Assembly (NCBI GenBank): GCA_023954375.1
Contig: JAMLIC010000015.1
Span: forward strand, 1 to 64,000
Direction: 5' to 3'
Length of the DNA stretch: 64,000 nucleotides
Origin: Planctomycetota bacterium
GTDB lineage: Bacteria; Planctomycetota; J058
In this document: piece by piece, positions 41,444-45,301 of the stretch
Layout of the letters: every line of letters starts with the position of its first letter
Position numbering within the stretch: the stretch's first letter is position 1
The notes under the pieces: generated by a model
What the model was told of the DNA's origin: nothing
Seen by the model: the letters and a program-made list of their open reading frames with translations, nothing else
Database searches by the model: none
Made by a program: the position numbers and the translations under genes

Positions 41444-43261
41444 ATGCCCCCGATCACCCACGTCGTCACCCACGCCGTCACCACGCGAGCCCTCCTGCGC
41501 GGCCAGCTCGCCTGGCTGCGCGGGCGCGGGCACGAGGTGTCGGTCGTCTCCGCCCCCGGGCCGGCGCTCGACGACGTGGCCCGCACGCAGGGCGTCGAGA
41601 CGGTCGGCGTGCCGATGTCGCGCGAGATCGAGCCGCTGGCCGACCTCGTCTCGCTCGTCCGGCTCGTGCGGACGCTCCGGCGCCTGCGGCCGGACGTGCT
41701 CAACGCCAGCACGCCCAAGGCGGGGCTCCTGGGCACGGTGGCCGGGGCGATCGCGCGCGTGCCGGTACGGGTCTACCTGCTCCGCGGGCTGCGCCTCGAG
41801 ACGGCGACCGGCCTGCGCGGGCGCACGCTGGCGCTCACCGAGCGGGTCGCCTGCGCCCTCGCGCACGAGGTCGTGTGCGTGAGTCACAGCCTGCGCCGGC
41901 GGGCCGTCGAGGAGGGCCTGGTCGACCCGGCCCGGGCGCGGGTGCTCGGGGCTGGCTCGTCGAACGGCGTCGACGCCGAGCGCTTCGCCCCGCGGCCCCC
42001 CGACCCTGCCCTGCGAGCGCGCCTGGGCCTCCCCGAGGGCGCGCCGGTCGTGGGCTTCGTCGGCCGGCTCACGCGCGACAAGGGGATCGAGGACCTGTGG
42101 CGGGCCTTCGAGGGTGTCGTGCTCCCGCGGGTCCCCCGGGGCCTGGCTCCTGCTCGTGGGCGAGCCGGAGCCGGGCGACCCCGTGCCGCCGGCCGTGCTC
42201 GAGGCCCTCGCCCGCCACCCGCAGGTCGTCCGCACCGACGGCTTCGTGGTCGAACGGCGCCCTACTACGGGCTCATGTCGGTCCTGGCGTTCCCGTCGGC
42301 CCGCGAGGGCTTCCCCAACGCCCCGCTCGAGGCGGCCGCCTGCCTGCCGGTGGCCGGGTTCGTGGCAACGGGCACGGTCGACGCCGTGGTCGACGGGGTC
42401 ACGGGCACGCTGGTCCCCCGGGGCGACGGGAGAGCCCTCGGCGACGCGCTCGCGCGCTACCTCGAGGACCCCGCCCTCGCCCGCGCCCACGGCCAGGCGG
42501 GCCGGACGCGCGCGCTCGAGGCCTTCGCGCCCGAGCGCGTGTGGACGGCGCTCGAGGCCGAGTACCTGCGCCTCCGCGTCCCCGGCCGCCTCGCCCGCCT
42601 GCGCCGCGCCGCCGGCCGCCTCGGCCGCTCGCGGACGCTCAAGCGCGCGCTCGACCTGTCCGTGGCCAGCGCGGCGCTCGCCGGCACATGGCCGCTCCTC
42701 GCCGCCGCGGCGCTGGCCGTGCGGGTCGGGATCGGCCGCCCCGTGCTCTTCGCCCAGCGCCGGCCGGGCCTCCACGGGCGGCCGTTCACGGTCTACAAGC
42801 TGCGCACGATGACCGACGCCCGCGGCCCCGACGGGCGCCCCCTGCCCGACCACGCCCGCCTGACGCGCCTCGGGCGCCTCCTGGGCAGCACCAGCCTCGA
42901 CGAGCTCCCCGAGCTCTGGAACGTCCTGCGCGGCGACATGAGCCTCGTGGGGCCGCGGCCGCTCCTCATGGAGTACCTCGACCGCTACACGCCCGAGCAG
43001 GCCCGCCGCCACGAGGTCAAGCCCGGCCTCACCGGCCGGGCGGTCGTCCACGGGCGCAACGCGCTGACGTGGGAGGAGAAGTTCGCGCACGACGTGTGGT
43101 ATGTCGACCACTGGACCCTCGGCCTCGACCTGCGCGTCCTCCTCCGCACGGCCTGGGCCGTCCTCGCCCGGGAGGGGGTCTCGGCGCCGGGCGAGGCGAC
43201 CATGCCGGTGTTCACGGGGACGCAGGCCCCTGCGTCAGCGAGGTCGCTCCAGGCGGTGTGA
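41444..43261 (+). CDS. GT4 glycosyltransferase fused to PglC/WcaJ-like phosphoglycosyl transferase; two compensating frameshifts
   Basis: 605 residues in one frame. N-terminal GT-B part (residues 1-380): [59 protein letters not shown] (as in CapM-type enzymes), [45 protein letters not shown]-terminal part (from ~400) is a monotopic phosphoglycosyl transferase: [46 protein letters not shown] and [25 protein letters not shown] with the catalytic Asp-Glu pair. Between 42133 and 42253 the true frame appears to be the next one, where [15 protein letters not shown] and [15 protein letters not shown] read well: one extra C in the C5 run at 42133-42137 and one missing base near 42252 explain it. Such fusions load a lipid and add the next sugar. 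Confidence 0.82.
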
Positions 43262-43265
43262 AGCG

Positions 43266-44155
43266 TCACACGTCGTGATTGGCTCGGTCGGCCAGGGGCT
43301 CGATCAGGTCGACCAGGAGCTGCCGACCCGTCGCCCTGAGAGCGTCGATCGACACCCCGCGACCGCTCAGGAGGCCGACCTCGCACGTGAAGTGCGCCTC
43401 CTCGAGAGCCGCACGCGTCTCGAGCAACGCACGCAGTCCGCTCCCCGCATCGCGGGCCAGGTCGCGCCAGTCGAGAGGGAGCTGCTCCCTGAGGGCCTGG
43501 ACCCACGGATCGAGCCACGCCTCGACGTCCGCGCGGGACGAGAGGTGAGCGATCGCCAGCACGCGCCCGAGGCCTTCGCCGAGCGCAAGATCCCGCGTCC
43601 CTCCATGGGCTTCAGCATGCGCACCTCGCCGACGTGGGGGTGCGAGAGCAGGTTCGCCAGCGCCATCATCGCGGGCGCGGCGTGGTCGATCCCGTGCTCC
43701 GTTCGCACCCGCCCCTCTCCCGTGAGGCCCTGGAAGCGGAACGTCGGCAAGCCGAACCAGGCGCCATGGACCCTGACGGGGATCCACTCCTTCGCCTGGC
43801 GCTGTGCAGGCGACGGCAGGTTCAGGAACTCGAGGAAGTAGTCCATCGAGTCGGGCGGGAAGAGTCGAATCGCCGGGAGCCGGTCCGCCGGTTTGGCAGC
43901 GGCCGCCCCGGGCGCCTCGGGGTCCTGCCTCCAGCCGAGGTCCCGGAGGCGCTCCGCCATGGCCGCGCACGATCGGACGTCTCCCGCGGGGTGGACGACG
44001 AGGTCCGCGTCCTTCGTCTTGACGCCCCGCTGACCCAGCTGATCGCGGAAGGCGTAAGCGGCGGCGAGGCTGCCGACGACGTAGACGTGCGGGTGGAGCT
44101 CGAGGGGCAGGTCCTGCGCCAATCGAGCGAGGAGCCGCGCTGGATCGAGCAACAT
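43266..44155 (-). pseudogene. AbiEii-like nucleotidyltransferase, frameshifted
   Basis: Starts ATG 44155 (TGATG overlap with the upstream HTH gene). N-terminal part has the nucleotidyltransferase signature: YVVGSLAAAYAFRDQLGQRG, then KTKDADLVVHPAG (DAD metal pair). It reads in one frame to KPMEGRG; then a clean continuation (DLALGEGLGRVLAIAHLSSRADVEAWLDPWVQAL to the C-terminal LVDLIEPLADRANHDV) is in the next frame. A single missing base in the C3 run at 43599-43601 restores a 296-residue protein. The catalytic residues precede the break. In the AbiE type IV toxin-antitoxin family the nucleotidyltransferase is the toxin, encoded second. Mutational inactivation and assembly error cannot be told apart from sequence. 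Confidence 0.7.
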
Positions 44156-45237
44156 CACGCGGCGTTCCTCCGCATCATGCGATCGAGCAGGGCGCCCGCC
44201 TGCTCGTGAAGACGTAGCTCGTGCAGGTCGAGGAGCACCTCGACGGGGTCGGCGAACGGCAGTCCTCCCGCCGGGTCCTCCGCGAAGAGTGACGCCGGCC
44301 GCCGCACCGCGTGGACCACGAGCACGGACCCTGGCGCGTCCGGCGAGGTCGGCTCGAGCGCCGGGTCGAGCCGCTCCACGAACCCGAGGTCCGCCACCCC
44401 GTCGGGAGCGTGAAGGCTCAGGTCCAGGCGCGGTAGGCCCTGGAGGTCGAAGAGTGGGTCCCAGTGGTGGGCTCCGACCACCCCGCCCAGCGCGACCTGG
44501 GGGGGCTTCAGCCGCTGGAGGCGCCGGAGCAGGTCCGGGGGCGGGGTCCGCCCGCCCGAGGCGTCCCTGTAGGCGACCGTCCCCCGGAGGGAGTGCGAGA
44601 GCGCCAGGAGCTCGCTCCAGGCTCGCTCGGGGAGGCCGACGAGCTCGACGCTGCGGTCGGAGCGCGCGTGGACGTCGCGCTGGAGCCGCTTCAGGGCGCG
44701 TGAGGTGGTGGGATAGGTGGCCCCGGCCTGTGCGCCCAGCTCGCCTCGCGAGATCGGCCCCTGACCGACCAGCCACCGCGACATGAGCACCTGGAGGATC
44801 AGGAGGTGCTTCGGGACCGGAGGGGTCACGGTCGCCGTGGCCGTGACAGCTGCGCGCGCGAGGGCGGCGAGCGCCTCGAGGTGTGCGTCTGCGCCCGGGA
44901 CGACCACCTCGAGCTCGTCTCCCACCGCGACCAGGGCGAGCCGGGAGGTCACCTCTGGCTGCAGGATCGCGAGGAGATCGGCCCACTCCTGCCTGAGCCT
45001 GGCCTCCGTCAGCCGTGCGGCTTCGAGGAGGAGGCAGGCCTGTCGCACCCGGGCGTTCTTCGAGAGATAGACAGCGAGGCGGGCGAGGTGGGCCCTAAGG
45101 TCCCGGGCACCGGCCTGATGCACCACGTCGAGGACCCGGCCACCTCCGCGCTGCTCGAAGTGCACTTCAGCGTGCGAAGGGTGGTAGCCCAGCCTGGCGA
45201 GCCGAGCTGTCAGCGCGTCGTCCAAGTGCTGAGCCAC
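44155..45237 (-). CDS. AbiEi-like winged-helix protein (putative antitoxin/autoregulator)
   Basis: 360 residues from GTG 45237. N-terminal ~130 residues are mixed alpha/beta (DDALTARLARLGYHPSHAEVHFEQRGGGRVLDVV, EWADLLAILQPEVTSRLALVAVGD). A winged-helix HTH follows (~145-185: LILQVLMSRWLVGQGPISRGELGAQAGATYPTTSRALKRLQ). The C-terminal part (GVVGAHHWDPLFDLQGLPRLDLSLHAPDG to DPVEVLLDLHELRLHEQAGALLDRMM) matches the AbiEi-type C-terminal shape. It overlaps the nucleotidyltransferase start by one base, as expected for an AbiE-type operon in which this gene represses its own promoter. A three-copy 19-bp repeat directly upstream is the likely binding site. Confidence 0.68.
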   Translation of the reverse strand: MAQHLDDALTARLARLGYHPSHAEVHFEQRGGGRVLDVVHQAGARDLRAHLARLAVYLSKNARVRQACLLLEAARLTEARLRQEWADLLAILQPEVTSRLALVAVGDELEVVVPGADAHLEALAALARAAVTATATVTPPVPKHLLILQVLMSRWLVGQGPISRGELGAQAGATYPTTSRALKRLQRDVHARSDRSVELVGLPERAWSELLALSHSLRGTVAYRDASGGRTPPPDLLRRLQRLKPPQVALGGVVGAHHWDPLFDLQGLPRLDLSLHAPDGVADLGFVERLDPALEPTSPDAPGSVLVVHAVRRPASLFAEDPAGGLPFADPVEVLLDLHELRLHEQAGALLDRMMRRNAA

Positions 45238-45244
45238 TTACGAC

Positions 45245-45301
45245 TGAAAGTAGCACCTCGAATCGAAAGGCGCAACTTCAATTGAAAGTCGCACCGTTAA
45301 A
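45245..45301 (-). promoter_or_regulatory. Three 19-bp direct repeats with embedded promoter (putative AbiEi-like operator)
   Basis: On the plus strand, tGAAAGtaGCACC at 45245, cGAAAGgcGCAAC at 45264 and tGAAAGtcGCACC at 45283 recur at an exact 19-base period; the spacer ends AAT or AAA in all three. This is the most A+T-rich stretch nearby. On the minus strand TTGCGC and TACTTT are separated by 17 bases and both lie inside the repeats; the -10 is close enough to GTG 45237 for a leaderless or very short leader. Repressor binding at these repeats would block RNA polymerase. Repeat periodicity is seen; operator and promoter roles are inference. Confidence 0.7.

Follow-up and report, generated by a model that had tools for sequence, protein, structure and literature searches.

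Three 19-bp repeat units tile positions 45245-45301 of the window, the 64,000-nucleotide stretch of Planctomycetota DNA analysed here. They stand head to tail without gaps, on the promoter of a minus-strand gene pair that encodes a helix-turn-helix (HTH) protein and a nucleotidyltransferase (NTase). Judged from sequence, the array very probably serves an uncharacterised toxin-antitoxin-like system as a conserved on/off switch. We consider it likely that the array is the operator of the cognate HTH protein, and that the operon is an unnamed AbiE-like candidate toxin-antitoxin pair in which the HTH protein would act as antitoxin and repressor and the NTase as toxin. Such an array is a recognisable signature for an unnamed, widespread candidate toxin-antitoxin family.

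The repeat array and the promoter at the locus

On the plus strand, the three copies GAAAGTAGCACC, GAAAGGCGCAAC and GAAAGTCGCACC start at 45246, 45265 and 45284, a spacing of exactly 19, in agreement with the original prediction of direct repeats with the core GAAAGnnGCAmC and a 19-base period. Read in the direction of transcription, the features are as follows.

45301-45283, minus strand: putative operator unit 1, TTTAACGGTGCGACTTTCA; promoter-distal, separated by 4 bp from the stop codon (TAG) of the lipoprotein-like gene upstream
45282-45264, minus strand: putative operator unit 2, ATTGAAGTTGCGCCTTTCG; holds the -35 box
45275-45270, minus strand: -35 box TTGCGC, within unit 2
45263-45245, minus strand: putative operator unit 3, ATTCGAGGTGCTACTTTCA; holds the extended -10
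45252-45247, minus strand: -10 box TACTTT, after a 17-bp spacer, with a TG extension at 45254-45255
44155-45237, minus strand: HTH gene, 360 aa, GTG start; candidate antitoxin and autorepressor
44641-44811, minus strand: winged helix-turn-helix (wHTH), residues about 143-199; Pfam HTH_Crp_2/MarR and PDB MarR profile matches, AlphaFold helices and strands
43266-44155, minus strand: NTase gene with the motif GSLAAAYAF...TKDAD; profile matches; its start overlaps the HTH stop (TGATG)

The lag-19 score of this array is 23 of 32, which was reached by none of 1000 dinucleotide shuffles, nor at any lag from 12 to 30 in any of 200 dinucleotide shuffles. Even when one mismatch was allowed, no second such array was found in the genome (10.1 Mb). 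The array is also a local A+T peak, with 53% GC compared to about 70-80% in its surroundings, as had been noted earlier. The promoter TTGCGC-17-TACTTT lies inside the repeats on the minus strand as first proposed, with the TG extension of the -10 as an addition, while the GTG start at 45237 was measured to be 7 bases from the last repeat instead of the 8 given before.

Conservation and form of the array

Usable homologues comprised 12 from genomes of the same phylum, and GTDB genomes gave 53 loci; two matches (L012 and L026), judged spurious or partial, were left out. The loci are labelled as Planctomycetota, Verrucomicrobia/Lentisphaerae, Acidobacteria, Myxococcales/Deltaproteobacteria, Betaproteobacteria, Krumholzibacteriota, Hydrogenedentota, Eisenbacteria, Aegiribacteria and Spirochaetaceae, about ten phylum-level groups in all, and these labels may be wrong in places because most of the relatives are MAGs. 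Conservation of the repeats upstream of orthologous pairs, the test suggested together with the original prediction, was observed across these groups. The lag of 19 was the best or joint best upstream repeat period in 40 of 48 homologous loci, compared to 31 of 954 windows drawn at random from these loci. For the best 30-bp stretch, a lag-19 score of at least 18 was reached in 37 of the 48, compared to 0.8% of the 954 random windows. It should be mentioned that the 48 loci include close relatives (L059 and L060, 98% identical; L061 and L064, 97% identical) and are not all independent. Scores of at least 18 at other lags in the same upstream regions amounted to 1.2%. In the eight loci where 19 is not the top lag, the cause is partly a 1-bp offset of the last unit. 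Within the set from the same phylum, self-identity was 0.456 at lag 19 and 0.405 at lag 38, and about 0.25 at other lags.

An expectation-maximisation (EM) fit of a three-unit array across the loci gave the unit consensus TATTAAGTTGCAACTTTAA, with register and consensus fitted on the same data as tested. Three units are present in 33 of 44 loci, and the copy number ranges from 2 to 6. With the axis at the centre of the unit (positions 10/11), complementarity is 53%, compared to 27% by composition (38 loci, near-duplicates removed), a descriptive figure because these data also served to fit the register. Since the units are partly palindromic, direct and inverted repeats cannot be cleanly set against each other here. 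The idea of a direct-repeat operator variant thus holds for the head-to-tail arrangement of the 19-bp units and was drawn too sharply for the quasi-palindromic units themselves. An exact two-unit TTGC pattern, strict enough to miss many true arrays, occurs in one of 392 genomes (G372), where the gene of an HTH homologue follows it directly.

The pitch is maintained while the repeated word changes. Two paralogues in a single genome (G047) have unlike words at the same pitch, TTGCGACTTTCA in L009 and CTGTAGGTTT in L013. In one clade (L047, L051 and L078), the recognition helix carries NYR(T/S) for SYPT and the words are changed too; L072 breaks this covariation, with SYPT kept and an odd word. 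Natural paralogues with swapped words provide a test of how repressor and operator specificity diverge under a fixed geometry. They also bear on the possibility that the array is bound by a different, host-encoded regulator, with the HTH protein acting as antitoxin only. Other regulators can bind promoter repeats, but the array accompanies the HTH-NTase pair in unrelated hosts and is present a single time in this genome, and the two G047 paralogues are better explained by cognate specificity than by a host factor common to both. We regard a host regulator as improbable.

Promoter phase, start codons and proposed repression

The TTGC core of the unit often doubles as the predicted -35 box, and the -35 TTG falls at one unit position in 25 of 43 loci (loci whose best-scoring predicted -35 is in the array). 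Start codons were chosen as the first in-frame start after the array, a rule that favours short distances; by this rule, 28 of 45 loci have the start codon 1-8 bp beyond the last unit and 14 have it 21-27 bp beyond. The two clusters differ by one unit length. In the group at 21-27 bp, a spacer of 17 bp typically separates the -10 from the -35 in the last unit, for example TTGACT-17-TATAAT in L047. Shine-Dalgarno-like motifs are found in 5 of the 45 loci compared to 16% of random windows, so there is no Shine-Dalgarno enrichment. Together with the starts close to the last unit, this suggests that the HTH-NTase mRNAs are leaderless in most loci. The leaderless transcript with which the locus had been called compatible therefore fits the pattern of most relatives, but not L062 and L066, where G-rich Shine-Dalgarno-like stretches precede the chosen ATG; leaderlessness is not universal.

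The operator role assigned earlier is consistent with the conservation of the array and with its place on the predicted promoter, from which we infer binding and repression by the HTH protein. The protein, probably bound as one dimer per quasi-palindromic 12-bp core (AAGTTGCAACTT-like), would fill at least three sites at 19-bp pitch, possibly with cooperativity. Because these sites overlap the -35 and the -10, their occupancy would exclude RNA polymerase and shut off the mostly leaderless HTH-NTase mRNA. With several sites, repression would track the antitoxin level, and loss of the antitoxin would reopen the promoter.

The same positions bear on a second alternative, in which the repeats would be transcribed and neutralise the NTase as a repeat-RNA antitoxin. 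Tandem repeats precede the toxin gene in type III systems. The gene directly after the array here is that of the wHTH protein, however, and not the toxin. Since in most loci only 1-8 bp separate the array from the start codon, and the predicted -35 and -10 lie in it or just after it, most of the array would be untranscribed. We consider a repeat RNA very unlikely, and repression by the cognate HTH protein remains the preferred reading.

The gene pair, its kinship and its distribution

The HTH protein is predicted to consist of an N-terminal alpha/beta domain, a central MarR-like wHTH and a C-terminal domain with the sequence DPVEVLLDLHE (model pLDDT 91.6). Its family matches are weak Crp/MarR wHTH matches only, around residues 155-188. 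No full-length PDB match to the model was found, the matches being to wHTH domains and, weakly, to nuclease-like folds. The NTase gene adjoins the HTH gene in most loci and looks intact in most relatives. A bicistronic arrangement of a wHTH gene and an NTase gene with the polymerase-beta-type motif hG[GS]...DhD was found, with GS...TKDAD in relatives and the TGATG overlap in the window. The nearest plausible fold match of the partner model is JHP933 (PDB 4o8s; probability 1.00, TM 0.43/0.52, 12% identity) of Helicobacter pylori, which we take to be a DUF1814 (AbiEii-like) nucleotidyltransferase. The AbiEii/DUF1814 model itself gave no match in the partner; a marginal DUF6036 match was obtained in one of seven (Pfam) and PDC-M21B at E 6e-4.

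In the window, the NTase reading frame changes at about 43565-43604, between RSAK and LGRVLA, compared to intact relatives, and the protein is 60% identical to the partner in L032 when read in two frames. This frameshift may be either real decay or an assembly error. At about 42110-42260, the glycosyltransferase-sugar transferase gene reads best in another frame compared to the intact gene of a congener (G001), and this stretch is bounded by two apparent compensating shifts, which suggests indel errors in the contig. In L046, the same locus as L013 and L028, the HTH gene and the array are kept and the NTase is reduced to a C-terminal fragment.

Any kinship with AbiE is remote. An hhalign comparison of the family alignment (A3, 12 sequences only) with relatives of AbiEi_2 (PF09952; A5, 5 sequences only) gave 88.8% probability and an E of 2.5e-6 over residues 33-355, and several AbiEi_2 loci have an NTase-like ORF downstream, as here. 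A direct PF09952 match was obtained in none of the 12 family members at E 0.1, and the AbiEi models of Pfam, NCBIfam and PADLOC matched neither in the window nor in the relatives. The link of this AbiE-like pair to AbiE consists of the remote AbiEi_2 profile match and the fold match of the partner to JHP933; AbiEi, AbiEii, NCBIfam and curated Pfam models gave no match. The 19-bp array was absent from all five PF09952 control loci with assigned starts, a small set.

The AbiE of Streptococcus agalactiae is a type IV toxin-antitoxin system with a wHTH repressor-antitoxin followed by an NTase toxin; its AbiEi has an N-terminal wHTH and binds two inverted repeats of 23 bp with 3 bp between them (PMC3985639, PMC7319586). 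The Mycobacterium tuberculosis pair Rv2827c-Rv2826c also has 23-bp inverted repeats, four in number and separated by gaps of 13 and 4 bp, and these tandem promoter operators are bound with graded affinity (PMC7319586). These reports bear out what had been stated earlier about known systems, namely that AbiEi operators are inverted repeats (PMC7319586) and that AbiEi-type proteins repress their own operons, autorepression having been shown for AbiE and Rv2827c (PMC3985639, PMC7319586). No direct-repeat AbiEi operators were found in the open-access literature searched. The present locus resembles S. agalactiae AbiE in the two-gene order and in the multiple operator sites overlapping the promoter, and by analogy autorepression would be expected here. 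It differs in having three to six units head to tail at 19-bp pitch and in the position of the wHTH, which is central and preceded by an additional N-terminal domain. Several tandem sites on the promoter are also a feature of Rv2827c-Rv2826c, unlike which the 19-bp units here are contiguous. The layout therefore departs from the 23-bp inverted repeats of both characterised promoters.

With less assurance than for the operator at this locus, though still on the favourable side, we propose a toxin-antitoxin family that occurs in about ten phylum-level groups and lies outside the searched Pfam, NCBIfam and PADLOC models. Its "ladder" operator would be composed of phase-locked 19-bp quasi-palindromic units, the core of which would serve as repressor site and -35 box together and, in many loci, also as an extended -10 where it belongs to the last unit. 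The mRNA would be leaderless, and the pitch would stay fixed while the word evolves.

The HTH gene was found in none of six other genomes examined from the same genus or family. Similarity to G001 (about 79% identity) stops where the sugar transferase gene ends (43218-43261), and in G001 (L100) an aminotransferase gene follows in place of the HTH-NTase pair. The absence from the six genomes and the differing neighbourhood in G001 indicate that the pair is accessory. Protein searches of 72,556 plasmid and 50,697 phage records found no relatives, and neither a single-protein search of genome contigs nor a viral scan gave any. The absence from the plasmid and phage records speaks against a third alternative, a replication-initiator-like HTH protein with the 19-bp repeats as part of an origin, which the pitch and head-to-tail layout call to mind because plasmid iterons share both. 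In addition, an NTase and not replicon genes follows the HTH gene, and the repeats are fixed relative to the promoter and start codon, so we see hardly any chance of an iteron origin. A chance or slippage-made tandem repeat devoid of function has practically no likelihood: non-coding DNA readily gains short tandem repeats, but here the pitch is conserved while the words diverge, the shuffles did not reproduce the score and the array is unique genome-wide. The iteron, repeat-RNA and slippage readings were rejected on the grounds given for each.

A viral pattern scan gave seven matches, none with an HTH or NTase profile nearby. On one 89.9-kb viral contig (L105:3778-3806), with no HTH or NTase gene found near the array, a two-unit array much like that of the window stands ahead of an ATG and is possibly an orphan or truncated module.
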